Source: Heterotrichella gracilis (lineage: Eukaryota; Sar; Xanthophyceae; Tribonematales; Xanthonemataceae). From it: a stretch of DNA of 64,000 nt. The stretch covers positions 1-64,000 of the forward strand of contig JAULBX010024850.1 in NCBI GenBank assembly GCA_032358255.1, given 5' to 3'. Shown in pieces: positions 8,198-64,000 of the stretch (its first letter is position 1; the number at the start of each line of letters is the position of its first letter). The notes under the pieces were generated by a model. That model saw only the letters and a list, made by a program, of their open reading frames with translations. It ran no database searches and had not been told where the DNA came from. A program made the translations under genes and the position numbers.

Positions 8198-11100
8198 TCA
8201 GTATCCTGCTTCAAAGTCCACAACTGCGCCAGGTTCCAAGGGAACTCCAGACAGCACCCGCCTGCGGTTCTCCACCATTTGAGCCACAGCTGTCTGCAGT
8301 AGAAACAACGCTATGTAATGCCGACAGCATACATAGTGCTGAGACGTTTGCCAGGGATGCACACAAACACAACAGATCGTTAGGTGTACTGTACGCACTG
8401 ACCCATTACACAACACAAGTGGTGCAACTGGCTTGAGCGGGATCCACCATGCATCTATGCCTGCAATGGCATATGTGGCGCACGGTCTGTGCACAAGCAG
8501 TGCAGCAAAAGACACACTCCAATCCACCTTCAGATGTACCCTCCTTACAAGCCTTACCTCCAGGTTTGTCATTGCAGACGTGTGGGGCGTGATGCGCACC
8601 AGTGGGTGCTTCCACAGTGGCGACTCAGCAGGGAGCGGCTCGGGTTCAAACACATCCAGCACCGCACCAGATATCTGCAAAGCAGAACGCCCTCAACAAC
8701 AGCTCACCCAGGACAATCACAGCCAAAACATGAAATGAACCAATAAATGCATGGATTAGGCAGCAGGAAAAGCCAACATTTAATAAAAACTCTTCCAGAG
8801 CAACTGTGCACACGCGTCATGTTACTTTGCCTTGCGAGCTTACAGCAGGTGGTACATCGCCTGAATCCTCCTCAAAACCGCATGGCCACATACGGAATAC
8901 ATAACTAAGTACATGATATAATATCAGCATACCCCATTACCAACAGGGAAGAAATGGGTCCGAATGCACTGCAGTGGCAGACAAGCACGTACATGGCCGG
9001 AATCCAGCGCTGCGATGAGGTCATCCACCACCACATGGCCTCCCCGGGCCACGTTCACCACACTTGCGCCAGCTGGCAGCCAGCTCAGCAGCTCCTGGTT
9101 GATGATACCTGCAACATTGCGGTACAGCATGACCTTTAATATTTTCATTGATAAGGTTAGATGAGGTTCCTTGTGCAAAGCAGCTGTCATTTCAATAAAA
9201 ACATTGCGAGGGGCGTATCACACTTACATACCCACATACACTATCCTAATCTACAAGCCTTACTGATCTGGACCCCTCCCTTTATCCTCAAAAACACATG
9301 GCTGCTTCCGACACCAAAGCTACCCTGCTACTGTCCGGTATACTCGCCTCTCGTATCGCTGGTGAGCGGCAGAATGCACACCAGGACATCCTGCCCGCTG
9401 GCAAACGCCTGGAGCTGGTCCAAACCAAAGAAACCCTTGATGCCCTGCATGAAAACATGCTCAATAATCACAATGCATGATTACGCATGAAAATAATGTA
9501 TGCATGCATGAAACTAATAAAGCATTATCCGGCCTGGTTTTGGACATGAGTAACTCCCAATTGATTTAGAATGAAATGGACCACAAGCATGTATAAATGC
9601 AGGCCGCCCCAGACGTACCGGTTGTTCCTTTTTCCTCCTGGTCCACGATGACACCTGGTAGCCGAGCTTTGCTAGCGTGGTGGCGGTGGGCAAGCCCATG
9701 GACCCTACAAGCGCAAGGGTTCAAAATTAGCTTCAGGGTGTAGGAAGCTGGACTCGCTCGGTGGGAGTGCGCAGACACTTCTGCCAGTACATACGTAGAC
9801 ATGGTTATGAATGGGTAAGCATGCAGCCGCAGAGGTACTGGCATTCCAGTACAAATCGCCACAATCCCTTTTCCCCACAACTCTACCCCTTCCCTCCAGT
9901 TGGCCCATTACCCAACTCCACCCACAAGATCGCCTCCCTGCACCCTTCAGCTCATGATCGTCTCCCTCCACCCCTCGCCCATGCCCATGATGCCCACCAA
10001 TGGCTACAGGGTTTATATTCCAGGGTTCAATATTGCAAGTGCAGGCCCCTCGCCCATACGTTCTCATCGCAGTTCGTGATCGTCGACACTGAGCCCTTCA
10101 CCACCCTTTCCCAGTGCCAACCCCGCTGCGCTCGCCAGTAGGCATCCATCTTGCGCTGGCTGTTGAGCACCGCCCATAAAAGTATGCTTTACGGTCTAGG
10201 GTTCAGGATCAGGGTTGAGGGCCTCTCACTCACCGAGTCCCATGATCCCCACCCTCAGCTCGTGGTTGTCCACATTCTTAAACCCTTCGACATCCTTCCC
10301 CCAATGCACCTCCCGCTGCGCCCGCCAGTAGGCATCCATCTTGCGTTGGCTGTTGATCACCGCCCACAGCACATAGGTGGCCATGCGCTCCGCCATGAGG
10401 GGATCGGTTACCCTAATTAAGGGTACATGGCGGGGCAGGGTGGGGTCTTTGACCAGGAAGTCCACCCCAGCGCCCATGGAGTGGATACCCTTTAGGTTCT
10501 TGCACTGCAGGGAAGGGGTGGGGAGGGGTGGCGCTGCTGGTTTCTTGGGGGTTTGGGGGTGTGGTGTGGCCGCAGTGTAGTGCGAGTGGGCAGCCCAGGG
10601 TTTAGGTGGTGGGGTGAAACCCTAGCCAAGGGTAGCCAAGGGTAGGTGGGTGAGGCGAGACCCTACTTAAGGGGTTACCCTTTCAAACTGCACCTCGATG
10701 GCGCCTGCATTTACGCCTTGATTTATGCGCTTCACTGGGTTGGAACAGCCACTGCAGAGATGGTGTCAGGAGTGCCACGCAGGGTTGGTGCAAGGCTTGC
10801 GGGGCTGTTGATCTGGCTGGCTTTTTTGACACGCCTGTAAGTACGTGGTTGACTGAGTACCTGCATGTATATATGGCCCCCTCACCTGTGCCAATAGTCC
10901 TGGAGGAGGGTTCCAGGATATTGCAAAGGTGATGTCGTCCAGGTTCCCCACCTCTGGCCACACCCGCACGTTCAGTTCCGGGATCCCAGTCAAGTATTGG
11001 ACCCATTTTGGTGCGGATTCCCACGCTGCACAGCCACACCCATGGCGTGGGAAATGTTGGCGCTATGCAAAGCATAGATGATGCATGCATATATAATATG

Positions 11101-11396
11101 ATGCATGCATATGCATAGGCATGGCATGGACATCACACACTTCTGGAAGGCGTGCCTGCTATTGAAAAGATGGTTTGGTACAAATCAGGGCGCAACGCGT
11201 GAGAGGACGTACCGCAGTGAAACAGCGTTGCGTCTTCCTTTGAGGTCTGGTCACTGGTTGCTGATCCCATGGCTGAGCTCGATAGGAACTGCCTCGACAC
11301 TCGCCTTGATATCAGCTGGTTTACTGTGGAGGCATGTAGGGTGGAAAGCTGCGGGAAAGCACCTGTCTTACCGACCTTGCACAGCGCCGACAACAT
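8198..11396 (-). CDS. GhrA-type glyoxylate/hydroxypyruvate reductase (D-2-hydroxyacid dehydrogenase), organelle-targeted
   Basis: NAD(P)H-dependent reduction of a 2-oxoacid such as glyoxylate or hydroxypyruvate is inferred from the family. Exons: 11396-11213, 11025-10886, 10504-10234, 9704-9619, 9444-9348, 9108-8993, 8674-8558, 8293-8198; 368 residues, every junction in phase. The GhrA pattern is clear: [10 protein letters not shown] early, Rossmann loop GLGSMG near residue 200, then the catalytic triad, Arg in [10 protein letters not shown] (about 281), Glu in VFEPEPLP (about 310) and His in ITPHTSA (about 329). It ends in EAGY, like the RGY end of bacterial GhrA. Roughly the first 50 residues are Ser/Arg-rich with no acidic residue before SATSD, which suggests mitochondrial or plastid import; upstream in-frame ATGs make the exact start uncertain. 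The intron after exon 5 uses a GC donor. Intron 3 holds an echo of exon 3. Confidence 0.86.
10066..10184 (-). repeat. Echo of dehydrogenase exon 3 (3' half) inside intron 3
   Basis: About 115 bp here match the 3' half of exon 3, including the stretch CCAGTAGGCATCCATCTTGC shared exactly with the parent at about 10327-10346. The copy lies downstream of its parent in transcript direction, has lost the reading frame and has no usable splice pair. Confidence 0.75.
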
Positions 11397-14737: not shown

Positions 14738-14908
14738 CAGGGGGATTGATGCCATCAAAGTGTGAGGGGGAGCTCCCCCTAAGGCTTGTCATGTCCCTCC
14801 GCCAGCCTCCGCGAGGTGCTGCTGGCAGCTGCTGGGGCTGACAGCAGCAGGGCCCTCATTATCAACCACGTTCCAAGCCACTGGCTTAGTAAGCATTGGA
14901 TGGGCAGC

Positions 14909-16442: not shown

Positions 16443-16554
16443 GCCTTAGGGTCTATGGTGTAGGGACCGGCTTGTCTAGGGTTTAGGGTGCAGGACTTGC
16501 CTTGTTTAGGCAAGTAAAGTTTAGGAGACCGCTTGGGGTGGTTTCAGGCTAGGG

Positions 16555-17359: not shown

Positions 17360-17693
17360 GCAGGTGCAGTGGAGGCGCATTCTGGCCCTACCTTACGGAA
17401 CTTGCTGCTGATGCCAGGGGTAAAAAGATAATAAAAATATCTATTATTATCTTCTTACCCTTGGCAAGCCTGGTGGCAGGCATTACCATCACAAACTTTG
17501 GCCCTGGAAGTTAATTAAGAGTGGAATGGAATGGATCTTTTCTGTACCTTAACCCACCGACCTCCTTGCTTGCAGGTGCACCCGGGCACCTTTTGGCCAC
17601 ATGTCAGGGAATGGTTTAGGGTTTAAACCCTAAACCCTAAACTGCTGCTTGTGAGCATGGTAACAGGCACTGTGGTTATGCCAATTCCGAAGT
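17360..17693 (+). repeat. Two upstream echoes of membrane-protein exon 17800-17943
   Basis: Copy 1 (about 17360-17512) and copy 2 (about 17573-17693) both begin with CAG-GTGCA and retain the GCACC-TTTTGGCC or related stretch and the GAGCATGGT-like continuation. Copy 2 is split by 17615-17641, a head-to-head telomere-like insert. Copy 1 has a 30-50 bp A/T-rich insert at 17420-17455. Neither keeps the full reading frame. Confidence 0.75.
17615..17641. repeat. Interstitial telomeric repeat in head-to-head orientation
   Basis: One TTTAGGG unit is joined directly to inverted CCCTAAA units, meeting at TTTAAA, inside an otherwise collinear copy of an exon. The flanking exon sequence resumes at the next base, so it is an insertion or repair patch. 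Confidence 0.85.
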
Positions 17694-17799: not shown

Positions 17800-20390
17800 G
17801 TGCACCGGGGCACCTTTTGGCCCTATGTCAGGGAGTGGTTGCTGCTGGTGAGCATGGTGGCCGGCTCTATTGTCACCCCAAAGTATGCGGTGGCATACTA
17901 CAGCAGCGGAACGGGGAGCTGCACCAGGCGCATGTGGTCGCAGGTACGGTCTCAACCACTGGACATTTGTAATGACTACCCATGAAATGTACATACATTC
18001 AAAAGTAGTAAGATAATTGCCTTTACCCTCGGCTTTACACACATTGACCACTATGTTACTCTTGAAGTTGTGTAGTGCCCATAACTTTTCTCTCCGTCTC
18101 TTCTCTTCTCTTTCTCTTCTCTTCTTCTCTTTTTCCTCTAGTCGATGACAGCCACGTGAGGTTGCAGGTGGGTGCCTCTGTGGTCCTGCGCGTAGCAATT
18201 GCGCCCATGAAAGGCATGCTGCAGCTTCAGCAGTGGGTGTGCACGCTGCTTTGGAACATTGTCATCTACATACTCTGGGCCAGAAAGGTGAGCAGCTACA
18301 AGGGAGTTGAGCGCTGTGCTTCATCTTGAAGTATCACTTCAAGTTTTACTTACTAAGCACGAAGCATTCCAACCATGCTAGCCAGGTCAGCATTACACGG
18401 GGTACGCCTCACACTTGAGGGCCAAGGGTTTGCAAGGTACTTGTGGGGGAGAGAGTGCCCCTCTCGTTCCACTCCTCTCCAATGCGTCTGTTCCAGGGAA
18501 GTGGTTACTTGCCCTCGCGTTCCAGCAGTGCGGTCAGTCAGCCTAGCAGTGCAGTGAGTCAGACTAGAGGTGCAGTGAGTCAGACTAGCAGTGCAGTGAG
18601 TCAGACCAGCAGTGCGGTCAGTCAGACTAGCAGTCAGCCTTGCACAAGCATGGCCATCCAGCTTTGTCTAACTTTGCTTGCACCATCTCCGAACGTGATT
18701 GTGCAAATGTATGCTCAAGGACAGCCTGCATAACCTATAAAACTTTCCATGTAACTGTGATTTATTTATCCTAGACAATCATATAATAGAATGAAGATGT
18801 TATAGTTGCTTGATTGCTATCATAATACCTCTGCATATATTCTTTTACCTTTGCCAAAGGCTTTGGCCTACAGGACGTGGCTCGTGGCCTCCATTGCCAG
18901 CAGTGGAGTTACGATGTTAGGGTACCTGGGCATTTACTCCCATGTTCTTGATGCACATTTCTACCTGGCAGGGTCATTGTTTATTCGTTAGTTTATTTCT
19001 GGGCTTTGCAGAATTGTAACTAATGTCTTTTTATTCCACCCGCAGGACCTGGCGCGCGGCCTGCATGGGCAGTGTCGGCAGCTCCTCAGCATGCAGCCCT
19101 GTGCAGCGGAGGTTTCTGAACAGCTCTTTGGCGCCATCCAGGCAAGTGGCACATTACAAAACCCAAAACCCTAAACAGCTTCTGGTTGTGGAGCCCTGCG
19201 CGGCGAGGTGTCTGAACAGCTGTTTGGCGCCATCCAGGCAAGGGTTGGGGAGTAGATCCTAAACCCTACACCCTAAACAGCTGTTTGGCGCCATACAGGT
19301 AAGAGGTGGGGTGTGGCGGGGGGATATGGTAGGGGAAACAGTGGACAGAAGGGCAATGCCCTCTTCTTCGCTCAATCCTCTTCTTAACCAACGCGCCTGT
19401 TCAAGGACAGGCTGCGTAGATTTTTTTTTTTTTTGCGTGGGGATCCTTGATGCCATACCAGCGTTCTCATATCCTTATGCTCTGGAATTGGTCATGTACA
19501 CCACTTGGAGCTTGATACAGGTCCCCAGATGCGCCTCCTGTCCAGCTGCACAATTTCCATGCGCTGGGCAATACCGCATGGGTGCTCTTTCACCTACCCG
19601 CCTCATATATACACGTTTAGATTGCATCTAATAACACGCCTAGTAATTTTCTCCACGTGCACACACCCTTGAAATGTCATTTTTGCTCTTTGGCCCCAGG
19701 CGCTGCTCTGCGACCTGGTCCCATACCCCACAAGCACGCTCCAGCTGTCCTGAACCCTGAACCCTAAACCCTAAACCCTGAACCCGAAACCCGAAACTGT
19801 GTGCAGCAGTGGCCTCAGCCCAGCGGCTCCACGCCAGTAAGGCAAGGGGTGTACATGAAACACCCCCCGGACTACATGAATGCACATGATACACCCATTT
19901 AATACTTTCAAAAGCGGTTATTTATAAAACCCTAAACCCTAAACCCTAAATTAATACATTTGTATGCACCCTGTTGCCCCAGGCGCCGCTGTGCTACTTG
20001 GTCCCCTCCCCTTCCTGCGCGCTCCAGCTCACCCCCCTGCAGCAGTGCGTGGCCAGCCGCGCATTCATCTTTGCCCTGTGCAACACCCTGCCAATCCTCT
20101 TTTCGCTCCACATCGAGCGCCGCAGCAGGGCGCACTTTTGCCAGATCCACTGCCCGGGAACCCCTGCCGCGGCCAACCAGCGCCAGCCGCCAGCTTGGCT
20201 CACGGCACTGTCCCAGCGAGCCAGCCGGGGATTCCAGTCCACGCTGGAGTGGATTCTAAGAATGGACACGCACCCCGACGAGAGGCAGCTGATTGCCGTA
20301 GGGTTGGGGCTGTACTGCGCGGGGTGGGGGGGCCTGTGGGGCCTGGCGGCGGCATGGGGCGCCCTGTGCAGGGCAACGCAGCAACTATGA
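17800..20390 (+). CDS. Unrecognised multi-pass membrane protein, 5' end unresolved
   Basis: I do not recognise the family. Four exons join in phase: 17800-17943, 18168-18287, 19046-19141, 19983-20390; 255 residues from the first clear exon to the stop. Hydrophobic segments that could span membranes are LLLVSMVAGSIV (exon a), a longer one ending NIVIYILW (exon b), AFIFALCNTLPILF and LIAVGLGLYCAGWGGLWG (last exon). The soluble part between the last two contains SRGFQSTLEWILRMDTHPDE. The third exon ends in ATCCAG followed by GCAAGT, a GC donor. Exon b follows a long TCTTC tract with two possible acceptors; only the one at 18168 keeps frame. Every intron carries echoes of a flanking exon. The upstream exon and start codon were not found. 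Confidence 0.5.
18524..18638. repeat. 21-bp minisatellite in an intron
   Basis: About five head-to-tail copies of a 21-base unit containing GTGCAGTGAGTCAGACTAGCA. Some copies carry GCGGTCAGTCAG instead. It lies in the intron between 18287 and 19046. Confidence 0.8.
18872..18920 (+). repeat. Upstream echo of membrane-protein exon 19046-19141
   Basis: The sequence after CTACAG at 18871 follows the start of the exon at 19046 with scattered substitutions (GACGTGGCTCGTGGCCT versus GACCTGGCGCGCGGCCT), then decays after about 50 bases. Confidence 0.65.
19180..19302 (+). repeat. Two downstream echoes of the 3' end of exon 19046-19141
   Basis: A first copy (about 19180-19246) keeps CTGTTTGGCGCCATCCAG with GCAAG after it; a second shorter one (about 19275-19302) has GGCGCCATACAG followed by GTAAGA. 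The parent has a GC donor but the distal copy has a canonical GT donor. Telomere-like CCTAAACCC lies at each join. Confidence 0.75.
19698..19800 (+). repeat. Upstream echo of last membrane-protein exon, followed by telomere-like array
   Basis: Positions 19698-19754 copy the first about 55 bases of the exon at 19983 (GACCTGGTCCCATACCCC versus CTACTTGGTCCCCTCCCC), then break into a CCCTAAA-type array at 19752-19796. A second telomere-like run, 19928-19950, lies just before the real acceptor. Confidence 0.75.
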
Positions 20391-21948
20391 TGCAGCAGTG
20401 AACCTGCAGTGCGCTGGCTGTGCGCTGGCACTTTTGATGCGACAGCACTTTCCATTACCTCACCCCCCATTGTATGCGGTAGCGCTGGCAATGCGGCAGC
20501 ACTTCAGTGGGCGGTGGGCACTTTGGCGCACTGCCAGCAACCTTCACAACTTCCATAAAGTACATGCCATTGCCGAGCAGGATTTTCTTTCCCCCAGGGT
20601 AATTATAAAGATTGTGCACCGCCGCAGAGGCAGGAGTATCATACCGAAATCCATTTCATGGGGGTCCGATATACTATCGTCCCGGGCCCTGTTCCAATTT
20701 CAAATCCAGCCCCATTTTCAATTATCTATTTGCAATCTTAGTTGCCCTTTTCAATGTCACGTGGGTCCTGTTTGGAACAGACCTGTCCTCCCATCATGTG
20801 CATGATACCCGTGCCTGCCAGCGCTGCCTGCCTGTGTGTACTGCCAAAGAGGTGGGTCGTTCTTACGCAGGTGATTCTGTTGTCTCGATTACAAATGCAA
20901 ATCCAACTTTTGCATGTACAACTAGAGTTCCAATCGCTTGCAATTGCTGTTTCAGTATTGCACACCCATGGGCCAACTTTTCAACGCGCGTGCGCTGTAT
21001 GGTACCCACTGATTTATTTACGTCGGCGTCCATCCCCATTGTTCACTCCAACCTTGCTTTTCCCACGCATTCAGCCATTATGGTATCTTTACCCCGGCGC
21101 ACCATTCCGCTATCCCCTCCGCTGCCACAACCCATTTGCCACAGCACTTTCAAATCCAGGGGACGGGTTCCCTGACTGAACTTTCATTTGGGCCATGAGT
21201 ATTTGCTACGCCGCCTTCACCACTCCTTTGCCATTTTCCCTAGTTTCTTTTCGGGTCGTTTTTTGGTGTTTTTTTCTCTTCATTTCTTCTTGCGCAAGCG
21301 CTTTTTTTGTCTTTTCTTTCGTTATTCGATTGCCGGCAAAGCACGGCCCTGGGCCCTGGGGCTGGGGTTGGGCGGACCACACCACCCCATTTGGACCAAC
21401 TTGCCAAGTTGGGCAGCCCCGGGCCTGTCTGGCAGACCACTCCTCTAAGTCAATTGACTTGCAGACTTACGCACCAAGCCTAGCCTAAGGCGCGTTCACA
21501 ATTTATGCCTGCTGCCAGTGAATTTTTAGAGTAGCTCTATGCTGAATATCTTAACCCATTGATGGGTGTTGTTCTGACACAGCAAGCGCACTACTCTTTT
21601 GCAGGACACCGCAAGCTGGCATTGCCATACACCAGGTTGGGATTTGGGGTAACTGCAGACTCAGCCAGTGTAATCAATGCTGATCATCCCTAAGAAGTAT
21701 AGTCAGCCATACTGTAGTTGCCTCAATGAGTGTGATCATGTCTGCCAGTGCTTCCTCCTGCCGCATTGAGTGTAATCAGCCCTAATCATGCTGTAGTTGC
21801 CATAATCAAGAGTAATCAGCCCTGATCATGCTGTAGTTGCCTCAATGAGTGTGATCATGCCTGCCAGTGCTTCCTCCTGCGGCATTGAGTGTGATCAGCC
21901 CTAATCATGCTGCTGTTGTCATGATTAGTTGTAATCAATCAGCCCTGA
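20391..21948. other. Convergent spacer between membrane-protein and methyltransferase genes
   Basis: The two genes end toward each other here. Open frames at 20600-21180 are long but without recognisable domains, and the T-rich block at 21230-21330 is low complexity. The last about 240 bp (21708-21948) are echoes of the methyltransferase last exon. I see no further gene. Confidence 0.4.
21700..21948 (-). repeat. Echo array downstream of methyltransferase stop codon
   Basis: The block CATGCTGTAGTTGCCTC plus following sequence, which ends the methyltransferase gene at 21949, recurs beginning near 21837, 21797 and, degenerately, 21906 and 21708. The copies include the antisense of the stop codon region and the preceding about 60 coding bases. 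The array is outside the coding region. Confidence 0.8.
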
Positions 21949-24704
21949 TCATGCTGTAGTTGCCTCGATGAGTGTGATGAGTCCTGCCAGTGCTGCCTCC
22001 TGGCGCACCACCCTCAGCCCCGCACCCTCCACCATCTCCCGCACCCGTTGGTTCCAGTAGCACCCCTTGCCACTGGCGGCAACCACACCCGCGGTCAGGT
22101 CCTGCACGGTAGGGTTTGGGTTCAGAAATGTAGGGTTTTGGTGAGGGTCTTTCGGGTGCAGCACGGTAGGGATTAGATTAAGAATATGAGGGTGTGGTGT
22201 GGAGCTGCAAAATGTCTCAACCTGATTTACACCAAGGTGCAGATGTGGCGTACACTGAAGCTCAGCATGGGAGCCTTCGTTGCAGCTGCGACTTCAAGAC
22301 CCTTAAGAAAAAGGGCGCGGCGTTGGGTTAAGGTTTCGAGCCATGCCAACATGGTGTCAATATACCCTATGAAATCGAAACCCTGTGCCCCAATACCTAC
22401 CTGGTAGGTCCCCAGCAGCGCAAAAGCCTATGTATACCCAATGCACGTAGATAACAGACCCTACCTGGTACACCCCCACCGGCACAAAAACCCTGTATAT
22501 ATCAAACCCACCTAAGGCCTGAACTCTAAACCCAACCTGATAGGCGCCTAGCGGTCCAATCCCCAACCCGGAGTGTTCCCCTGTTCTTAAAACCTAAACT
22601 GTAGGCCCATAACCCAAACCCTACCTGGTAGACGTCCATCGGCTCAATCCCATCCTGGTGTTTTCCCCTAGTCCTAAACCCTAAACCCTAGGCTCGCAAC
22701 CCTAAACCCTTACCTGGTAGGCGCCCAGCGGCGCAATCCCCGACCTCGAGTGTTCCAGCAGCAGCAGCTTCCCCCCCCGTTTCAACACGCGTGCCATCTC
22801 ACCCAGGGCCTGCTGCGGTTGGGGGATGACGCACAGGCTGAAGGTATCAACCACGCAATCGAAGGAAGAGGCGGGGTAGCTCAGCCGCTGCGCGTCACCT
22901 GAACACACACATGGAAGAAGGATTATTAGCTTTATAATTCTTTTGTATTTTCATAAATAACAGGCACCTTGCGCAATGCTCCATTCAGCTTCGGGACATG
23001 TGTTGTTGCATGGCCAATAAACTTTACATGGGGGTGGCCACCATGCAGTTGAAGGAAGATGGGGGGTAGCAAAGCCGCTGCGCATCATCTGAGCATACAA
23101 CAAGGGCGTTGTCTTGCACCTGTTGTGGTCACGGAAACTGGATCCTCATTTCCGGCATTAGAATATCCACAAAAAAACAGCAATGATCCCCCATGGAAAA
23201 CACACCCACCTTGCTCCAGCTTGACCCTTTCTCCAATCCCCAGAGAGTCCGCCTTGGTCCCCGCCATGGCCAGCATGCCCCCCGAAATGTCCATTCCTGT
23301 TATTGAAGCCACCCCCCTGGTAGGGTACAGCCCCAGGTTTATTCCAGTCCCCACCGCCACCTCCAGTACATCCCCATACGCGCGTGACAGCAGGTCCCGC
23401 CTCAATCGGTCCAACCCTAGGAGGTTCGCTAGGGGTCCGGCGTCTAGGTCGTCGTAAGACCCTACGTCAGGGTTTTCTAGGTGTCAGAGTAGGTGTTTTC
23501 TTCAACCTAGGGGGTTCGTGAAGGGTCCCGCATGGAGGTCCTGGTAAGACCCTACAGGGTTTTGGTGGGGGTCAGTGTGGGCTGTAACACACGCCACAGG
23601 TGGCAACCCGTCCTTGCATTGGTGCATGACCGCACAGTGGCATGGAAGGTTGGTGTGTCACAAAGCTGCGTGTGGTGGTCCAAGCATGACGAGCCCTGAT
23701 GGCACTCTCATTTCCCGAGGCATTACCCAAACCTTGCGGGAATTGAACCCCGCTCGCCCACCCGTAATTTCCCTGCATTTCACGAGTAACTAGCTGCTCT
23801 AGTGTATTCCACCAGAGCTCTACTGCTGGTCATCAGCACATTTCCCAGACACACCACTTGCCTGTCTTCCACTCTCACCCTGTCCCCGCCCCTTTTCCTG
23901 TGCACCCCTTGCCCATCCTTGCCCACCCCACTCACGGGCCTCACTTCACCCACTAGCGTTGTCCCCTCCATTCCTCGCCATCCCCGTGGTCGCCCCGCTG
24001 CTACCCCCCCTTCCTCCTGCCTTTTTCCCCCCGCGTGATGGCTTTCCTGATTGACTCCTTTTGGTGGGGGCTACGCGTAACTGCTATGCCGCCTTATGTA
24101 CGCCTTTGGCGTTTGTTTTCTTTTCTTTTCTACACATTAGCAAATGGGAGCCTCAGAGATATTTCGTACTTGAATTTTGAATGTTTTCAACTAAATCTAT
24201 CAGTCACCCACCTGCAAACCCATCATGGTCCAGCTGAACCTTTATAGGTGTTTAGGGTTTGAGGGTTTTGGGTTCCAGCTAGGGACGTGGGACCAAGGGG
24301 GTAGTTGGAGTATCAGTTGGCATCGCTGCAAGTTTCAATAATCAACTTCAAGTTTGATAGCACTCCTCATATCCCTAGACATTACAACCAACGAGCGGGC
24401 ATCGCATTTCTCGGCCACCCACCCCTCACCCACCTGCATACCCATCATAGTCCTGCTGCACCTGCTGGGTGTCTGCAGCGGCCAAGCTGCATGCCTCTTG
24501 GGCGCGAGGTACCAAGGGGGTGGTTGGAGTATCAACCAGGGGCGCGGCGCCAGGGGGCGATGCGCGTGCCTGGGCGGCATGAAGGGTTGTGAACCCTAGG
24601 GTAACGCAACCAAGGGAGGCAGTGAGAAGGACCTGTAGAGGGGAGGAAATCACTTGGAGTTGTGAACCTTGTGCCCAGCTGCGGCGTGGTTTTTTCATCA
24701 TCAT
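21949..24704 (-). CDS. UbiE/type-11 SAM-dependent methyltransferase with N-terminal targeting segment
   Basis: A class I methyltransferase of the UbiE/COQ5 type; the substrate is unknown. Exons 24704-24434, 23461-23210, 22898-22714 and 22101-21949 give 286 residues with all phases matching. SAM motif I is [10 protein letters not shown] (residues 121-130), followed by GMDISGGML (motif Post-I), [20 protein letters not shown] (motif II) and [15 protein letters not shown] (motif III). The N-terminus has basic residues (KKPRR), then a hydrophobic run ([13 protein letters not shown]) ending near AQARA, which suggests plastid, possibly thylakoid-lumen-side, targeting. The start is the first of three tandem ATGs at 24704. 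Three of the four exons have echoes beside them. Confidence 0.85.
22395..22711 (-). repeat. Four echoes of methyltransferase exon 3 end plus 5' splice site
   Basis: The parent exon end and donor (ACCTGGTAGGCGCC read on plus, near 22712) recurs near 22622, 22534, 22462 and 22398, spaced 89, 88, 72 and 64 bp. Each copy carries a donor-like sequence, 10-40 bases of exon and telomere-like CCTAAACC. Similarity falls with distance from the parent. Confidence 0.85.
23035..23100 (-). repeat. Upstream echo of methyltransferase exon 3 start
   Basis: About 60 bases match the exon 3 start and acceptor, sharing GGGGTAGC and GCCGCTGCGC. The copy is in the intron just before the parent in transcript direction. 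Confidence 0.7.
23495..23582 (-). repeat. Upstream echo of methyltransferase exon 2 start
   Basis: The stretch CCTAGG(A/G)GGTTCG through GGTCGTCGTAAGACCCTACG of the exon 2 start is repeated once upstream in transcript direction with about 75-80 percent identity, including the acceptor-like end. Confidence 0.75.
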
Positions 24705-27700: not shown

Positions 27701-28023
27701 AAAACCCTAAACCCTCATCTGCTTGGCCCATTGCCTGACAGGCCACACATGTGCACCACCCCCAGCAGCCCAACCCATGGACTGCAAAAAACCCTAAATC
27801 CTAACCTTGAAACCTATCCCTCAACTGCCTGGTCCCCGTCCCCTGAAAGGCCACACTTGCACCACCCCCAACCCACCCCTGGACCAAACCCTAACCCTAA
27901 ACTCTAAACCCTTAACCTTGAATCCTCAGCTGCCTGGCCCCCGTCCCCCGACGGGCCACTCGTGCACCACCCTGTCCCCACACAGCCCAACCCCTGGAAT
28001 GCAAAACCCTAAACCCTAAAACC
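24705..28023. other. Gene-free region between methyltransferase and PLP enzyme genes
   Basis: About 3.3 kb. Open frames are common on both strands but short, overlapping and without family motifs. Positions 27700-28020 are downstream echoes of the PLP enzyme last exon. A tRNA A-box-like GCCGAGCGGGTAGAGC at about 26020 has no matching B box in a tRNA fold. I see no gene. Confidence 0.4.
27700..28020 (-). repeat. Three echoes downstream of PLP-enzyme stop codon
   Basis: The last 50-60 coding bases (CAACTGCCTGGTCCCCG on plus, parent near 28022) recur near 27924, 27819 and 27713, spaced 98, 105 and 106 bp. Each unit is closed by CCCTAAACCCTAAA-like sequence. All lie beyond the stop codon. Confidence 0.85.
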
Positions 28024-31000
28024 TCAACTGCCTGGTCCCCGCCCCCTGACTGGCCACACGTGCACCACCTTGTCCCCTCGCACCCCCACCAGCCAGTCAT
28101 ACATGTTGACTGTGGGGTCGCAGTGGCCAGGGATGAGGCGCAGCTGGGTGCCGAGGGGAGGGAGCTCGGGGGGGCCCTGCTGCCACACCTGCAGGGGGGG
28201 CATATCATGGTTGAGGAAAGGGCGCGCATATTCTGCGACTCAAAGGGTTGTGGTTCAAGGGACGCCTGGCATGGAAAGGGGCAATAGAAAGGATTCCTGT
28301 TCATACAGGTTGACAGTTGGGTTTCAGTGGCAAGGTATGAGGCGCAGCTGGGTGCCAAGGGGAGGGAGCTCGGGGGGACCCTGCTGCCACACCCGCGGGG
28401 TAGGTAGAATGATCGAGATATGGACATGTGTTTCCTGTAACCCGAAGGGAGAAAATTCAAGGACACAAACAAAACCCTGTTCTATAGGATGACACTTTGG
28501 TTGCAGTGGCTGGGTATGAGGTGTAGTTGGGTGCCCAGGGGGTTAAAACCTTGGTACCCACCTTTAAAATTTAGGGTTTCCTTCATTGCCCCCCCACCCC
28601 CCCACCCCTCCACCCCCCCCAATGCCTCCCCTGGCACCCACCTCTGGCCACAGCAGCATGCCATGTTCATCCCCTCCATTCCTGACCTCCACTTGCACCC
28701 CTTGGGTCTGCTCCGGGGGCAGCACCGGTGGCCCGGAATCGTAGGACACCGCCTTACCCCCCGCGTCAACCACCACCATGTGCCGCTCAGGGCTGCGGCT
28801 CATGACGGTGGTCAACACCCACAGGCTCTGCTCCCACTCACCCTGCAAAGGGGGGCACGTGGGCTAATGGCGGGATGCGTGCACGCATGAATGGGCAATG
28901 AAGGGCTGAAGCGAAAGCCAAGATCTGTTTTTAGGGTTGTATGAGGCTTCTTTGCAATGGTGGCATGACCAGAACCATGTGGCGAGCGGGGCTGCGGCCC
29001 ATGACGGTTGTCAGCACCCACAGGCTCTGCTCCCACTCGCCCTGCAAAAATGGACAAGTGGGCTGATGGCATGGGCAATGGAGGGCAGAAACGAAAGCCC
29101 AAATCGGGGCTTGGGGTTTAGGGTTTAGGATCTTGTGGAGCTTTTGCAATGGTGGCATGACCACCACCAAGTGGCGCTCAAAGCTGTGGCTCATGACGGT
29201 TGTGAGTACCCACAGGATCTGCTCCCACTCGCCCTGCAAAATGGACAAGTGGGCTGATTGGCGTGGTCATGCATGAGCAATGAAGGGCAGAGCCCAAAAG
29301 TCCAAGATCTGGATTTGGATTTTAGGGTTTAGGGTTTTGTGGAGCAACTGCAATGAAGTTCATGACCATTTCCATGCGCCGCTCAGGCTGTGGCACATGA
29401 GGGTTGTGAGAACCCACAGGCTCTGCTCCCATTCGCCCTGCACAGGAGGGGCATGGGGGCTGATGGCATGACCATGCATGCGCGGTGGAGGGCATAACTA
29501 AAAATGTGGGGTTAGGGTTTAAGGGTTAAGGGTTTTGTGGAGCATGTGCAATGAAGGTCATGACCACCACCAGGTGGCAAGCGGGGCTGCGGCAAGTTGA
29601 TTCCCTAATCTGTTCCCCAATCAGCATCCTTGAACTTGAGATGATGCCAGTAGCCGTTTCTCTTTGAAAAATATCTTGTTTTTATCACTCACCTGCCTGC
29701 CGTCCTCCTGCCAGTTATTGGCGTAATCCGCGTCGCCAAAGCAGAATGACCCCGGCTGCACCTCGGTGAACACTCCGCTGCCCGCCTCAATGCGGTAGCT
29801 CCCGCTGCCGCCACCTGGCAGTGGCATGCGAACACAATAACGATTATACTGCATGCTGTACTAACGCAATTCAGCATGCACCACCACAGTACAATTACGT
29901 CAGTACTTGCGCCATTTCAGCGGTGCAGCCAGATAAGCAGCCAGCTGCGCACCAGCGGCACTTCTAGCACAGTTCAGGCGTGGAGGATGCAGACATAACC
30001 AGCGCTTGAACCAACAGGCCCACACACGTAAACCCCACACAAAAGCTTGGCCTCATGCCCTTTATCGTAAATCCTACACATCCCGAGAGAACCTGTCACA
30101 TCCTAAACCCTAATGTTAAGCCCTATACCCTAAGCGCACCTGTCACCACCTCAGGCGCCAGGCCCTCCCCCCGCAGCAGCTCCACCGCCCTCCTCGTTTT
30201 CTCCACCACCTCCCCCACCTTGTGCTGCCGCTCCTCCACCTGTCTCACATGCTGCACACCGCCGTGGTAGGACTGGATGCCGCGGTACTCAATGCCTGCG
30301 GACGGGTGCAAAGCGCTGACATTTGGGTGAGGGGTGGAAGAATGTCACTGACTATTGGGTGTGGGATGGAAGAATAGGTACTCAATGGCTGCGGAGGGGT
30401 GCAAAGCGCTGACATTTGGGTGAGGAATAAGAGAATGCCGCGATGCTCAATGGCTGCGGAGGGGTGCAAAACGCTGACATTTGGGTGAGGGATTGGATAA
30501 TATCGTGATGCTCAATGCCTGCGAAGGGATGCAGATCCCTGACATTTAATAAAGGGTTGGGAGGACCTACGTGATACTCAAATGCCTGTGAAGGGGTACA
30601 CTGACCCTAATGCACATGCAACTCACAACCAGTGGCAGCATTGGCAGAAAAGATGCCCTACAAGAGCCACACACTACCCCTGCCACAGACCAGGGTTCAA
30701 CTCCACCATCTGCAACCAAATTCGTATAACACCATATGCTTTACTTCCCTCCCCTTCCACAACCCCATACCCCACCCACCCTGCGTGTTGCTGGCCAGAT
30801 GCGCTAGGCGAATCAGCGCTTCGTCGCCGTCCACGCCGCACCGGTCCTGCCCCGCGTTCATCTCGACTAACACGCCAACCTTGGTGCCCTGCCGCCGGCA
30901 CTCTGCTGCGATTGCCAGCAGGTTAGAAGGGTCATCCACGCACACAGACACCTTGGCACCTGCATACAAAAAAATGTTTCATCCTGGTTCCCACATATAT

Positions 31001-51234: not shown

Positions 51235-51700
51235 CCCTTGGCGAGAAACCCCGCACCACTCCCTAACCTGGCCCACTGGTGGGCGCAGCACCCGGTGTCA
51301 TCCCCTCCAGACCCCGCCATTGCTCACCGGTGGGGGCAGCGCCAGGCTGGCACCCACCCCCACGCGCAACCCCAACCCCCCCCGGGCCTGATGTCCCACG
51401 CTGCCCCACCCGTCGCCGTCCCTTGGGGGATCATCCCCACCTCATTCCCCGCCCTTGCCCGCTGGTGGGGGCAGTAGCAAGCTGGTGCAAAGTCATCCCA
51501 CCCTCAGTTCCCACCCTCGCCCGCTGGAAGCGCAGCAACAGCCTGGCACCCGCGCCCAAGCTTAATGACCGCCGCCACCAGGAAGCGCTCCGTGCTGACG
51601 TGTACACCCGCAAACCCCGCCGACACCTTGACACCATGCCCTGCAGCTGCACTGGAGTCCCACGCTGCCCCACACCCCGCCGTCCCTTGGGGGATCGTCG
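51235..51700 (-). repeat. Echo array downstream of the TerC stop codon
   Basis: The TerC 3' coding end (CTTGCCCGC-GGTGG-GGCAG, parent 51717) recurs near 51525, 51459, 51325 and 51270. The longest copy (about 51500-51650) covers roughly 130 bases, including the CACCACCGCCAGCGAGCTC region in decayed form. The 3' flank CCGTCCCTTGGGGGATC is copied as well. Confidence 0.8.
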
Positions 51701-51705: not shown

Positions 51706-54700
51706 TCAGTCCCCGCCCTTGCCCGCCGGTGGCGGCAGCAGCAAGCTCGCCCCCACCCCCACGCCCAGCAGGCCCGCCACCACCGCCAGCGAGCTCCCGG
51801 TGCTCACATGCACATCCGCAAACTCCGCCAGCATCTTCACGCCGATGAACGCCAGGATGACCCCCACCGCCTTGTCCAAATAGTACAACTTCTCCATGAA
51901 GGAGGACAGGAAGGAGTAGAAGCCCCGCAGGCTGAGGATGGCCATGATGTTGGAGGAGTAGACCACAAAGGGGTCGAGCGTTACGCCGAGGACCGCGGGG
52001 ATGGAGTCCACTGCGAAGAGCACGTCGGACAGCTCGATGACTGCCAGCACCAGCAGCAGGGGGGTGGCCACCTTCGCCTGCGGGGGAAACGGGGAGGGGA
52101 TGGTTTGTAAATATACTCCCTTGGCACCACACACGTGGGTACAGTAGGTTTACGGAGGAAATGCTACTCTAACTTGTAAAGCCAGAGCCTCATGTGACTT
52201 GAGTCAAGTCGCGTAGGATCAATAGGCGGATAAGGAAATGCTACGATTAGTTTGGTGACTGGGGCAGTGTTGGTTTGTTTTTGGTTGCAAAGGTAGCTTG
52301 GGTCTCTTGGTGGGGCTTTTTTGGGTGTTTTCGGCACATAGGGCGTGAGTTGCCCTTGTTCCCTAAAGGCTGGGACGGATCGCGTACTGTAAATGTCGCA
52401 TAGAAATCTACCAACTGTGGCGGGAAAGTCATGATCATTCCATCACTACCCCTCTGTGTACGGTGTTCCCACTTATTCTATCCTTGTACAGTTTTATACT
52501 TTAAAGGCCAGGAGCACATGACCACTTAATGGACACAAATGCCTTCCTCGTCCACATATGTCCATCCCGTGTGTTATGCAACCCTCACCCCGTTTTGAAG
52601 CGTGAAGAAGTTGTCCCCGTCGTAGCTGTCAGTCACTGTCAGGAACCGTCGGCAGAACTTGACCACCGCATTCTCGCTCAAGTCCTCTTCTTCATCCGCG
52701 TCTCCACCTAAGACACAGGGTGCATAAAGTGAAGGGCTGAAACGAGAAAGCGACGCAGCCCATCCTTGAACCGGGGAGGGTTTAGGATTTGGCAGAGACT
52801 CACAGAATGGCTACTCAAGGCTGTCAACTCCTTATTCATGCAACGGTGGACATAGGCAATCAAGATGGGGTATCCCTCAAACACGATTTTTTATATCGGT
52901 ACATGTAAATGCATTGGGAATACAATACATGTCGAAGTGCATTCGTTATCTCTGTCAGTCTTGGGACACAGCATGGCTCCCGGGATGCTCCCGCCACAAA
53001 TTCCTTGTCCCTAAACGGTTGCGACAGCGGCAACAGTAGATGGTGCACATGCACATGCCAGTCGGCCCTTACTTGTGAATATCCCATACGCGCTGTACAC
53101 CAGGATGCCCGCAAACACCGCCAGCAGCGGCTTGAAGTAGGTGATGAGCTCCACACCCAGGCCAATCAGCACCAGCCGGAGCACCGCGGCGCTGAGGATG
53201 CCGTAGGTCAACACCTGCACCAAGAAATGGAATTCTGGTGGAAATCCTGAAAATCACGAAGAATTCTGTTATGAATCCATGAAGCGCAATTTTGGTGAAG
53301 ACGCTGGATGATGCAAACATGCAGACAATGCCACAAAACCACCAGCCAAAGCACCGCGGCGCGCAGGATGCCATATCGGATGACCAGGATGAAGCCAAAC
53401 CCTAACGCCAAAATCCCTAGACCCTAGGCCTTGGTGCGCACCTTGCGCTGCGCGTCAGAGGAGCACCGGAAGTATCTGAACACCGGGATGAACACAAATG
53501 AAACCGGATGAACACAAATCCTAACGCCAAAACCCTAAACCCTAGGTGCTCACCTTGCGCTGCGCGTCGGGGGGGCACCGGAAGTATCTGAACACCAGGA
53601 TGAACACAATCAGATTGTCCACGCTCAGCGCCTGTTCCAGCAGGTAGCAGGTGAAGTACTCCTCCCCCCGCTGGGCACCCATGCCTATCCACACCGCTGC
53701 GCCCAGCGCCACCGCGGCAAACACGCAGGCTGCCGCTTGCTCGCCGCGCTCCTCCGCCACCTCCACAGTGCCCTCCACAAAGGTCACAGCCTGCACCGGG
53801 TGGGGGGGGGAGGAGAGATGGGCTGAGGTGTTTGTTCAAGAGGACCCTAAAGCCTGACACTTTGTTCACGAGGGCCGTGCAACAGTCCAAAGGGACCCTA
53901 ACACTATCTCTATAAGAGCCGTGCAACTGTTCAGCCGGCCTGAACAATATTGGAACAGCGCTCTACATTTTCCATATATTTTGGGGCGGCCCTGGGTGCT
54001 GTCCCTTACCTGAGCCAGCTCAACAGGTGCGACACCCACCACCGCCTCCTCAATGAAACCCCCCACCCCCTCCGAACTCAACCAACAACCCCACCGACCA
54101 GGACCCTCACCTCTATTTGAGCAAGCTCTTCGCATGTTACAACAATTACATCCACCACTTCCTCAGCAACACCCCCCTGCCAACTCAACCAACAACCCCA
54201 CCCAACCAGGACCCTCACCTCTATTTGTTCTAGCTCCTCGGGCGTGATTTTGCCTGTGAGGGGCGCGGGGGCGGGGGGCACAATCTCGCCAGTACCCTGC
54301 AAGGGTCACCAAGGGGAAATAGCAACGTTGGTGTGCTGACTATTGCAATCCATATTGGCAACTGAATGCAAGTAAGCAGACACTTTCCGCAAGTGCTGCA
54401 GCGCACATGCTGGCTATGGCGTTGCACAATGGCAACTGCACGCAAGTGACCAGACACCTCCGCAAGCGCAGCGCCATATACGGTGCATGTGCACGTTCTG
54501 TGCTTGCATCAACGTCACAGGAGTGGGGACAAGGCCTGCCAACCACATGCCACCTTCCCCCGCCCCCATCCTGGGCTATCAATTGTGCCCTCAGAACCCT
54601 AAGGGTTTGCGATCATATGCCCTGCTCACCTGCTCTATCTGCTCCTTTGCGCTGAAGGCCCTCCAGTGGTGCAGGGGGGCGCGGCGGGGCGCGGCTGGTC

Positions 54701-60994: not shown

Positions 60995-63551
60995 ATGGGT
61001 GCATGCCATTCTATGTGTTGGCTGTTGACTACAACCCTGGTGCCTGTCACAGCGGGTGAGTGGGAGCTCTGTGGGGAGCGCTACTACTCCAACAGGGAGC
61101 TGTACGAGATGAGCTGGACACAACCCAACCTAGAGAGCAGCAGGTGAACCAAGCCACCCACCATGCCGGTGGCATGGTGGCATGGTGGCATGGTGTGTGT
61201 CACACACACACACACGACCTACCCAACCATCCATCCATCTCGCCACCATACCACCCACGCATCCATCCTCCACACATCCCTCTCTCCCCTCCCAAGCGCA
61301 TCCACTCTCCCCAAGACACACCCAACCCCCAACCCTCCACACCACCAACCTACACGTGCCTCCACCCACCCCACCCATTGACGCACACTTTACCCCACAC
61401 ACCACTGCAAGCACCCCACCACAACGCCACCCCACCCACCCAAACTGAACAATGACTCCCCCGTGGTTCCAGAGTCGCGTGCGCCCCCTACGGCGGGCCC
61501 ATCGCAGTTGTGCGAGACGATGCTAAGACTCAGCTCGTGGTGGGGTCCAGTGCGCGCCCGGTGGTGCGCATATACAACGCCGCGGGGGCGCTTCAGGGGG
61601 CGGTGGTGTGGGACGGGGGGCGCATCGCGGCACTGGGGTGGGACAGCGAAGAGGACTTGCTGGTGGTGGATGAGGCCGGGCAGGTAGGGTTTCGGGTAGG
61701 GTTCTTGGCTGGTGTGAGGTATGGGTTCATTGTATAGTTTGGCAGTGGTTAGCAGCCAAGAGCATTAAAACCTACTGATTATCAAAACCCTACTGTTTTT
61801 TATAGGGTAGGGTTTTAATGCCCGTTTAAACCCTACTGGGCATTTATAACCCTACTGGCAATAAAACCCTACTGAGCATCAAAACCCTACTGGCAATAGG
61901 CACTGACTGGTTAGGTTACAGGTAGGACCTGGGCAGGGGACTGTCCTAGCGATGCAAAACAGGTAGGGATTGGGCTGGGATTGCCCCCTGGCCTATGGAA
62001 ATCACCCCTGCTTATGTGGCTAAATTATCCTCCCCCCCTCCCGTAATCCCCAGGTGTCAGCCTATTCCCCCCAGGGGAGGTACAAGGACTCCCCCTTCTC
62101 CTTCGGCGCCCAAGTGGAGGCCCAGGGGGTGCTGCAATGCATGATGTACGGGGAGGGAATGGTGGTGCTGACTAGGGAGCTGCAGCTGTGGGCCATTGGG
62201 GATGTGGCAAATCCCCGGCCTGTTCGCCTGGCGGATCTGCCCATTTCCTCCCCTCCGCAATGCATGGCGGTCATACCCCCTGCGGCCACGGTGTCGGGGT
62301 CTGTGGAGGTGCGTCTATGATCCCCAAACTTTGCTAATATCCATGCGTAGAAAATTAGACAATAAAATGTAGTTAAGTCACCCAATTGGCGTCGCATCAT
62401 CTGACAAGTTGCATTTCCCAACATCACATTGCAAGCGCAAAAATGGAGCGGCATGCACCTGTCACTTGGCCAGCATGACGCCTTACGTTGTCCATACACT
62501 AGCTTACCACTTGTGTACAAAAGAACCCTTTGCAAAACCCTTTGCAAAACCCTTGTGCAGGTGGTCATCTGCCATGGAGAGTCCCTGCTGATCGGCGACA
62601 GGGATGCTGTCCAATCCCCAACCACGCCCCAGGGGCCCCTGAAGCTGCTGGCGGTGTCCCCAAATGGCCAATTTGTTGCGGGGCTCACCCAGGAGGGCCT
62701 ATTGACCGTCTGGCTCAGCGATTTCACCAAGGTGTTGAGTGAAGTGGATGTGGAGGGGAGGGCGGCCCCTGAAGGGGAGGCGAGCGAGCTGGTGTGGTGC
62801 GGGACTGACTCACTGGTGCTCCGCTACCCGGTGAGTGGACGGGTTTTAGGGTTTTCGTAGGATTTAGGGTTTGGGGCCAGGGTATAGGCTCAGGGGGTTG
62901 CAAAGTCTCGCGAAGATTTTGTAGGCTTTACGCCGAGGGGTGCCCTGAAGGGGATGCGAGCAAGCTGTTGTGGCGTGGGACCGACTCACCAGTGCTCCGC
63001 TACCCGGTGAGTGCTAGGGTTCATGTAGGGCCAGAGGTCTATGTAGGATGTGAGTCTAGGGTGTGGGGCTCCGGAAGGGTTTTGAGTGCAAGGGTGGCGC
63101 CACAGCGGGTGGGCAGGGAGGATGTGTGGCGTGGGGCTGAGTCAGGTTTAGGCGTTTCTGATGGAGCGGTGTGCGCCTGTCTCGATTTATCCCCGGCTCT
63201 GTTTTCCCACAGGACTCCCTGCTGATGGTGGGTCCCTATGGGGATTGGCTGTCCTACCCCTGCCACCCCTCCACCCACCTCGCCCCCGAGATAGACGGCC
63301 TGCGCACCATCACCACCACCCACCACCACATCCTCCGGAGGGTGCCAGACGCCCTCTCAGACATCTATGGCATTGGATCGACCGCGCCCGGGGCCACGCT
63401 GTTCGCGGCAAGGGGGTTGTTTGATGCGCATGATGCGCGGGCGGATGAGGAGCTTCGGGGGATTGCGGATGGGTTGGCGGGGGCGGTGGCGGCGTGCGTG
63501 GCGGCTGCGGGGGCGGAGTTGGACCCCCTGCACCAGGAGCAGCTCATGAAG
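60995..63551 (+). CDS. VPS16: VPS16, HOPS/CORVET tethering subunit; C-terminal part beyond window
   Basis: Core subunit of the HOPS and CORVET complexes that tether membranes for fusion at vacuole/lysosome and endosome. Exons 60995-61143, 61473-61683, 62054-62308, 62561-62830 and 63213-63551 are in phase, about 408 residues of the N-terminal beta-propeller; animal VPS16 is about 840. Matches: WELCGERYYSNRELYEMSW, VACAPYGGPIAVVRDD, ALGWDSEEDLLVVDEAG, LLAVSPNGQFVAGLT, LVWCGTDSLVLRYP, SLLMVGPYGDWLSYPC, EIDGLRTITTTHHHILRRVP. The ATG at 60995 is in frame but its first about 17 residues look unlike VPS16, so a separate short first exon joined near 61046 is a good alternative. Introns 4 and 5 carry echoes. 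Confidence 0.92.
61780..61900. repeat. CCCTACT repeats in VPS16 intron 2
   Basis: Six or seven AAACCCTACTG(G)-type units, several followed by GCAATA or GCAT, with one inverted TAGGGTAGGGTTT at 61804. They are variants of the telomere-like unit. Confidence 0.75.
62940..63145 (+). repeat. Downstream echoes of VPS16 exon 4 end
   Basis: The exon 4 end and donor (GTGCTCCGCTACCCGGTGAGTG) is repeated at about 62945-63018, including GAAGGGGA-GCGAG and GGGAC(C/T)GACTCA. A second shorter trace (GTGGCGTGGGGCTGAGTCAG) lies near 63127. Confidence 0.9.
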
Positions 63552-64000
63552 GTGGGGGCTGCTGGATCATGAGGGTGTAATAATCAAAATTAATTACATT
63601 TATTTTTTATCCACAAAGAAAATGGTATGTGTTTTTGACGTGGCGGCTGCGGGGGCGGAGCTGGACCCCGTGCACCAGGAGCAGCTCATGAAGGTGGGTG
63701 CTGCTAAATTAAATAAGCAAAATCAAGCACTTGTCATTCTTATATTGTCAATTGGTTTAACAAAGTGTTTGTTGAAAATATGCAGCTCTAAGGGTGGGAG
63801 CAGCTCTTGAAGGTGGGTGCTGCTGAGCACAAAAATAACAATAAGCTGGGTATAAAAAAGATGCAGCTCTGATGGTTACATGAACTAGATTTAAAAAGTT
63901 TGCAAATTGTAAAGTTGGGTGGTTATGTAATCCACCACCGTTGCTACTCTTGCATGCAAATGAGTTACAAGGTGTCAAATCATCTAAGTATGCATGCAAC
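63552..64000 (+). repeat. Downstream echoes of VPS16 exon 5 end; window end
   Basis: GCGGCTGCGGGGGCGGAG then ACCAGGAGCAGCTCATGAAG of exon 5, plus donor GTGGG-GCTGCT, is copied at about 63640-63705 and as a shorter piece at about 63788-63825. The remaining sequence to 64000 is A/T-richer intron with no exon visible. Confidence 0.85.

Follow-up and report, generated by a model that had tools for sequence, protein, structure and literature searches.

Short, diverged copies of exon edges, here called echoes, lie beside their intact parent exons in a 64,000-nucleotide stretch of the Heterotrichella gracilis genome (contig JAULBX010024850.1 of assembly GCA_032358255.1; hereafter the window). The copies are direct, sit on the intron side of the edge, and are often separated from the parent by filler that contains telomere-like DNA. 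We give a probability of about 0.5 to the reading that they record recurrent staggered breaks close to the edges of coding exons, whose ends were filled in and then joined through filler that is often telomeric, with survival of the events that spared the message. The window is a gene-rich part of a 68.5-Mb draft assembly in 903 contigs, and the share of the genome examined is about 0.4%. In-frame gene models in the window, placed by hand from the sequence alone, comprise 41 exons with 72 curated splice edges.

Comparison of the whole window with itself gave 61 repeat pairs, 56 of them direct. Local pairs, defined as self-BLAST pairs within 1 kb with palindromes excluded, numbered 52 direct and 1 inverted when set against the 41 curated exons, and none was found in 20 dinucleotide shuffles of the window made in 2-kb blocks. 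Copies were present at 24 of the 72 curated edges, so the exon echoes reported in the initial annotation are real. At all 24 edges the copy was direct and intron-side, with the acceptor and exon start repeated upstream and the exon end and donor repeated downstream, which is the arrangement that had been described. The copies form 29 families: 13 acceptors, 11 donors, 3 coding 3' ends, and 2 exon interiors (B2 and I4). The coding 3' ends belong to three of the six terminal curated exons (E4, F9, and I6) and their copies extend beyond the stop codon, which shows that the copying does not need a splice site. Forty of the 52 direct pairs had one member on a curated exon. The remaining 12 were five copy-copy pairs within the same arrays (19212; 31038, 31164, and 31173; 63678), three pairs in uncurated DNA (16.5 to 16.9 kb), two in a 21-bp minisatellite (18.5 kb), one in a long open frame (45.5 kb), and one that is telomere-like (61.8 kb). 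The E3 donor array is additional, being detected by the tandem-repeat scan only (22522-22756) and absent from the local-pair list. Eight genes had been said to be affected; six of the seven multi-exon models and the single exon B2 do carry copies, but self-BLAST and the tandem-repeat scan found no echo in the glyoxalase-like gene (model C, 12.4 to 14.7 kb).

The copies reach only a short way into the intron, with medians of 15 bp for 33 acceptor and 16 bp for 27 donor copies on the intron side, compared with 60 and 37 bp, respectively, into the exon. For the pairs that are 85% or more identical, the median intron reach was 13.5 bp (20 acceptor) and 15 bp (15 donor); copies that overlap (gap below 0) do not enter this overhang tabulation. 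The youngest pairs are the clearest, as in the K4 echo (95.5% over 67 bp), which stops 12 bp beyond the donor and gives way to unrelated sequence of 75 bp. Head-to-tail steps can be made out by eye in some arrays (F5, L023), whereas the K4 copies are separated by the unrelated filler and are not contiguous. Across all loci, the nearest copy lay 60 to 240 bp from its parent at 101 of 103 edges and farther away at the other 2. The spacing from parent to echo is two-peaked, at 80 to 120 and about 180 to 200 bp, with modes near 100 and 190.

Copies differ from their parents by about 4 to 30%, with different flanks, at many loci and on many contigs. Where the copy has at least 10 bp of intron reach (41 of 58), its exon part matches the parent at an identity of about 0.90 and its intron part at about 0.80, the roughly twofold divergence expected if one exon copy is held while the rest drifts. 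Sister genes in a paralogue cluster (C378) have identical D2 exons over the 60 bp compared; their echoes, one in one gene and two in the other, are 88% alike. The D1 echo of the window is 90% like its own exon, and that exon is 81 to 85% like the intact D1 exons of the sisters. The decay of copies away from the parent that had been described was not borne out: in five testable arrays the nearer copy was more alike in two and less alike in three, and spacing against identity across 69 pairs gave rho +0.23 (p 0.06). Pairs with a gap below 0 or longer than 200 bp were left out of the identity-profile, spacing-identity, and length statistics.

Edge excess and telomere-like filler beyond the window

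Exons outside the window were called with an ab initio gene finder, a hidden Markov model whose training used the curated exons and 15 long open frames and then its own output. These calls are predictions of a model trained on the window's curated exons, likewise from sequence alone, and the model was frozen for the replicate. On the window, which is its training set and not an independent test, it returned 29 of the 41 curated exons exactly and 70 of the 82 exon ends, and the 12 that it missed are B2 and terminal (first or last) exons of the hand models. A spread sample of 16 other loci (147.5 kb) and a replicate of 5 fresh loci (44.7 kb) together cover 192 kb; loci were picked by contig number at fixed positions rather than at random, and L001 to L008 stand outside the spread loci. 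The cluster C378, which is not a random locus, is outside the 16-locus and replicate tests but is included in the distance profiles, the intron tests, and the overall orientation count.

The 16 loci yielded 55 direct local pairs and 1 inverted, so the density of copies, first noticed in one 50-kb stretch, is not confined to it. Predicted splice edges were spanned by 49 of the 55 pairs (0.52 under a shift null), only 1 of the 55 had no exon overlap (null 0.31), and 55 of 380 predicted edges carried a copy. With predicted exons, the window itself gave 35 of 52 pairs spanning an edge (null 0.34) and copies at 41 of 159 edges; the replicate gave 16 of 23 (null 0.35) and 17 of 114, with all 11 single-edge cases intron-side. 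In the 70 single-edge cases from the window, the 16 loci, and C378, the copy was intron-side at 33 of 41 acceptors and 27 of 29 donors. The 10 exceptions are five long copies in L016, four cases in which both copies are called exon edges, and one case in L020. The L016 copies (3211-4604) are long tandem copies of several hundred base pairs at 72 to 75% identity, unlike the short echoes. Over all loci examined, 154 local pairs were direct and 5 inverted.

Pairs of the 16 and 5 loci were merged into clusters, of which 42 lay at predicted edges, 3 were noncoding only, and 5 were coding but had no predicted edge. A placement model in which exonic events are purged and noncoding DNA has half weight expects an edge share of 34% (P = 9e-17), and with a noncoding weight of one-third P is 2.5e-12; the expected share over both weights is 34 to 44%, and full independence of the clusters is not assured. 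The excess of copies at exon edges thus holds statistically on the predicted genes of these 192 kb, as do the direct orientation and intron-side position of the copies.

The repeat found in the filler is of the TTTAGGG type and was counted as telomere 9-mers on both strands. In the 16 loci these covered 1.14% of bases in introns, 0.10% in intergenic DNA, and 0.12% in exons; in the filler that separates parent from copy they reached 8.4%, against 0.81% in other intron sequence. The window gave 2.2%, 0.24%, and 0.09% for introns, intergenic DNA, and exons and 5.8% of filler against 0.93% of other intron, which upholds the telomere-like DNA initially noticed at the joins. The telomere 9-mers peak close to the splice sites, at 7.4% of bases at +20 to 30 from donors, falling to 0 to 1.6% in all bins beyond +40, with both strands raised; at acceptors the values are 3.6% at 20 to 30, 2.2% at 30 to 40, and 3.3% at 40 to 60 bp, then 0.4 to 1.9% beyond 60. 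The donor peak is still present in the 205 introns without a local pair (3.8 to 3.9% at +20 to 40) and in the replicate (10.0% at +10 to 40 versus about 1.8% beyond). Seven control repeat units, compared by compartment only, occupy 0.03 to 0.24% of intron bases, versus 1.56% for CCCTAAA. In string searches of the whole genome, a telomere unit 5 to 35 bp after AGGTGAGT gave 62 matches (23 C-rich and 39 G-rich) and a telomere unit before AGGTGAGT gave 16 (11 C-rich and 5 G-rich), some of the matches overlapping; reversed-pattern control strings gave 0 genome-wide. Within 60 bp of donors, 43 tracts are C-rich and 35 G-rich, and over 301 tracts purity declines with distance from the edges (rho -0.18, p 0.002). 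One such insert is seen in the D1 echo, where TAGGGTTTAAACCCTAAACCCTAAA at 17617-17641, telomere-like and head-to-head, interrupts otherwise continuous sequence with about 1 base lost, as judged by eye. These inserts are visible without a conserved partner and their positions match the ends of the copies, which points to joins near coding-exon edges. Like the higher divergence of the intron part, the filler and its peak at 10 to 40 bp are statistical results obtained, outside the window, on predicted genes.

As a separate observation, most of the tracts lying no more than 60 bp from an acceptor are C-rich when read on the sense strand (27, against 11 that are G-rich); in its G-rich form, a tract there would put an additional TAG ahead of the acceptor.

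Proposed origin of the copies and possible intron growth

In the mechanism that we propose, staggered-end DNA breaks would recur near coding-exon edges, and fill-in of the overhangs would produce a direct duplication of about 30 to 130 bp. The ends would then be joined with filler, often telomere-like, either because telomerase acted on an exposed end or because telomeric DNA was captured. Events within coding sequence would be purged, whereas an exon end plus donor added downstream, or an acceptor plus exon start added upstream, would leave the message intact as long as the exon-side copy stays in use. Surviving copies would drift neutrally, and repeated events would build arrays. The near-pure direct orientation (154:5) favors fill-in or re-copying of one strand over switch-back use of a template. 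Purging accounts for the scarcity of inserts in exon interiors but not in deep introns or intergenic DNA; the latter calls for a bias in where breakage or repair occurs. That chromatin or transcription causes the breaks at exon edges is a guess.

Several points weigh against this mechanism. Its staggered ends are deduced from the duplication itself. The fillers are often long, with a median gap of 69 bp, beyond what fill-in alone explains, and a genome search with the K4 filler (63564-63638) gave no other match and no source. Head-to-head telomere pairs, which telomerase working at both ends should produce, show no clear excess, at 6 G-then-C versus 4 C-then-G. Copying of coding 3' ends, seen at three of six in the curated models, was found at 0 of 14 in the 16 loci, where 1 of 12 predicted starts carried a copy (C378: 0 of 3 stops, 0 of 3 starts), all on few ends. 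C378 has no edge excess, with 8 of its 24 direct pairs at predicted edges (null 0.41) and 11 of the 24 touching no predicted exon, although the D1 and D2 echoes there are nonetheless plain in alignment; in the replicate, 4 of 23 pairs touched no predicted exon (null 0.47). Positions sampled in the 16 loci fell under a pair member in 10.8% of cases in exon interiors (at least 40 bp from an edge), a figure to which the long coding copies of L016 contribute, compared with 3.5% in deep introns and 0.4% in intergenic DNA, which makes the copying exon-associated rather than strictly edge-only. Finally, AG or GT is kept in 55 of 58 echoes against 44.5 expected from overall identity; this leaves room for constraint, though the pairs counted had to span the edge.

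The retention of AG and GT would be expected if selection kept the copies or the telomere-like tracts, as splice decoys or as regulatory DNA of the type of the plant telo boxes, whose regulatory role is known (PMC3022908). Against selection, divergence in the intron part of the copies runs at about twice the rate seen in the exon part, the sister-gene echoes have diverged beside identical exon stretches, the donor-side tracts occur on both strands, unlike an RNA element, and tract purity declines away from the edges; we therefore regard this explanation as quite improbable. Ordinary tandem duplication, by slippage or unequal exchange acting everywhere, would seem to favor edges simply because the conserved exon copy stays recognizable. 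It makes the side rule automatic for any message-sparing event, predicts the higher identity on the exon side, and agrees with the plain head-to-tail steps of the F5 and L023 arrays and with the lack of edge excess in C378. It fits poorly with 42 of 45 clusters at edges, when 34 to 44% are expected with purging and down-weighting of noncoding DNA, and with telomere-like inserts that peak at edges too, where no conserved parent is needed to see them. On balance, we consider it unlikely.

Break repair by template switching, either through polymerase theta-like joining or through gap repair that aborts once an intron or element has left, could recopy an exon edge and would account for the fillers, the multiple copies, the unrelated joins, and the short intron reach of the copies (medians 13.5 to 16 bp). 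Such repair should yield many inverted copies, in conflict with the orientation count, and no intron family sharing both ends is found among the longest 40 of 102 inter-intron matches, so we hold it doubtful. That the arrays are relics of intron birth from duplicated AGGT-containing exon segments is very improbable, even though CAGGTG is common to exon starts and donors in the gene-finder consensus and introns have been shown to arise by tandem duplication (PMC3443670). Across 288 introns, intron ends are no more like their own neighboring exon ends than like others: intron starts match their own downstream exon start at 6.09 versus 6.06 positions of 24 (2 outliers, 2.9 expected), and intron ends match the upstream exon end at 6.26 versus 6.19 of 25 (2 outliers, 3.2 expected). 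The initial interpretation is partly supported: the evidence favors local direct duplication with telomere-like joins, the AGGT signature of intron birth was not found in these introns, and the data bear on intron growth and turnover. An assembly artefact is hardly credible in view of the 4 to 30% divergence, the different flanks, and the many loci and contigs involved.

Intron lengthening, as initially suggested, is arithmetically implied, yet the length tests conflict. Introns that hold any local pair have medians of 393 and 427 bp, against 272 and 319 bp for those without, but introns with an intron-side echo have a median of 355 against 312 bp (p = 0.25). We propose, tentatively and with less confidence than the breakage mechanism, that introns may grow from their ends inward, edge-directed breaks and telomere-associated repair adding copied edges and filler just inside the splice sites, so that newer inserts would push older ones toward the intron center. 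Introner elements were considered separately and are not supported, as no intron family with shared ends was found among 294 introns from a small sample of the genome; of the longest 40 of 102 inter-intron matches, about 8 join unrelated loci and none of these 8 covers both intron ends. Intron lengthening and turnover are otherwise poorly known because their traces vanish; here the traces are dense, readably young, and carry a telomere-like marker of joined ends. If breaks truly concentrate beside coding exons, this genome preserves a record of how gene structure and DNA breakage are connected.

Genes and features of the window

The curated models comprise a glyoxalase-like gene (C), a gene for an unknown protein (D), a methyltransferase (E), an alanine racemase/D-serine dehydratase-like enzyme (F), a kinase (G), a TerC protein (I), the N-terminal region of Vps16 (K), and B2, a single exon of another gene. 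Of these models, Pfam supports all but D and B2, for which it gave no match at E 0.001. The kinase is of the SnRK2 type, and its best PDB matches are SAPK10 and SRK2E, proteins of rice and Arabidopsis; together with the TTTAGGG-type repeat, it was read as a sign of a green-lineage host.

Table 1. Exon-edge copies and related copies in the window, with parent exon coordinates in parentheses
Feature	Position	Strand	Remarks
Copy of B2 exon interior (10256-10366)	10070..10176	-	79% over 111 bp; downstream in gene sense, no donor
Echo of D1 acceptor and exon start (17800-17943)	17572..17680	+	Self-BLAST; right end by eye
Two echoes of D3 exon end and donor (19046-19141)	19189..19314	+	Self-BLAST
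Echo of D4 acceptor and exon start (19983-20390)	19693..19746	+	Followed by telomere-like DNA, 19749-19797
Copies of E4 coding 3' end and beyond (21949-22101)	21708..21949	-	No splice site
Array of E3 exon end and donor (22714-22898)	22400..22713	-	Period about 87 bp; outer limit by eye
Echo of E3 acceptor and exon start	23040..23099	-	Self-BLAST
Echo of E2 acceptor and exon start (23210-23461)	23506..23581	-	Self-BLAST
Echo of E1 exon end and donor (24434-24698)	24204..24241	-	Self-BLAST
Copies of F9 coding 3' end with stop codon (28024-28188)	27702..28010	-	Telomere-like DNA in between
Echoes of F9 acceptor and exon start	28301..28541	-	Self-BLAST
Echo array of F8 acceptor and exon start (28642-28842)	28951..29593	-	Tandem-repeat scan, self-BLAST
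Echo array of F6 acceptor (30140-30295)	30377..30595	-	Tandem-repeat scan, self-BLAST
Array of about 4 echoes of F5 acceptor and exon start (30780-30959)	31099..31710	-	Tandem-repeat scan, self-BLAST; telomere-like filler common to several copies
Echo of F4 exon end and donor (31866-31974)	31739..31788	-	Self-BLAST
Echo of F4 acceptor and exon start	32064..32134	-	Self-BLAST
Echo of F3 acceptor and exon start (32275-32352)	32417..32471	-	Self-BLAST
Echo of G1 exon end and donor (35560-35712)	35763..35825	+	Telomere-like filler between parent and copy
Echo of G2 acceptor and exon start (36306-36504)	36110..36149	+	Self-BLAST
Echo of G2 exon end and donor	36645..36779	+	Self-BLAST
Echo of G4 acceptor and exon start (37695-37839)	37506..37589	+	Self-BLAST
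Echo of G5 exon end and donor (38164-38274)	38320..38392	+	Self-BLAST
Two echoes of G6 acceptor and exon start (38872-39015)	38601..38800	+	Self-BLAST
Two echoes of G6 exon end and donor	39078..39266	+	Self-BLAST
Copy of I6 coding 3' end and beyond (51706-52077)	51393..51483	-	88% over 91 bp
Copy of I4 exon start region (53073-53214)	53340..53375	-	No acceptor
Echo of I3 exon end and donor (53554-53790)	53387..53497	-	Telomere-like joins
Echo of I2 exon end and donor (54219-54296)	54066..54132	-	Self-BLAST
Echo of K3 exon end and donor (62561-62830)	62943..63021	+	Self-BLAST
Echo of K4 exon end and donor (63213-63551)	63639..63705	+	95.5% over 67 bp
Second K4 echo	63797..63824	+	Self-BLAST

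The D3 donor at 19142 is GC (GCAAGT), and one D3 echo has GT (GTAAGA). A third I2 copy, at about 54010-54050, is readable as a small extra exon and was excluded from the TerC model. An imperfect palindrome of about 190 bp (75%) lies at 13313-13503 in an intron of the glyoxalase-like gene, and a MITE-like element at 16100-16446, with 41-bp inverted repeats (95%) about 265 bp apart, lies in a predicted intron. Direct copies of about 400 bp, 78% alike and 2.5 kb apart, occupy 57291-57685 and 60195-60580. A short dispersed element occurs at 19-73 and 5177-5230; its copy at about 5.2 kb is inside an intron matching introns in L018, L023, and L025, which probably hold the same element.

Comparison with known systems

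A tandem duplication over an intron-exon boundary that produced a new intron has been described as a single case in the RdRp gene of potato (PMC4974935). Here, too, the duplicated blocks run across the boundary, exon sequence from one of the copies ends up within the intron, and splicing would rely on inherited signals. Unlike the potato case, whose abstract mentions no telomere-like filler, the H. gracilis copies occupy from about 15% of predicted (55/380, 17/114) to 33% of curated (24/72) splice edges. Exonic duplication and break repair are likewise sources of intron sequence in accounts of intron gain by AGGT duplication and break repair (PMC3443670, PMC2891723), the difference being that the duplication signature was not found in the 288 introns compared here.

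The telomere-like filler has its own parallels. Mammalian interstitial telomeric sequences are reported as insertions at double-strand breaks, with duplication at 3 of 66 loci (PMC7215372), and like the inserts seen here they are short and telomeric and some come with random filler. In the human data of that report, the share of inserts in introns, 31%, fits random insertion, whereas here the density of telomere 9-mers is about 11 times higher in introns than in intergenic DNA, with a peak 10 to 40 bp from donors. For plant telo boxes, which are also single telomere units spread within genes, the authors propose that telomerase acts on free 3' ends in transcribed chromatin (PMC3022908). According to the same source, the boxes are enriched in 5' UTRs (untranslated regions), and introns lie slightly below the genome average in Arabidopsis (150.7 versus 155.2 per Mb) and rice (72 versus 81.1 per Mb). 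In contrast, the figures here are about 1600 per Mb in introns, 340 in intergenic DNA, and 100 in coding sequence, counted on both strands across all loci examined by rules that may differ. Among the open papers listed, we found no description of the combined pattern of exon-edge echoes and telomeric filler, which is weak evidence of absence since most subscription papers lay outside the search. Boundary-crossing duplication and telomeric insertion at breaks are each known separately, and we class their genome-wide combination in H. gracilis as a variant of known processes.

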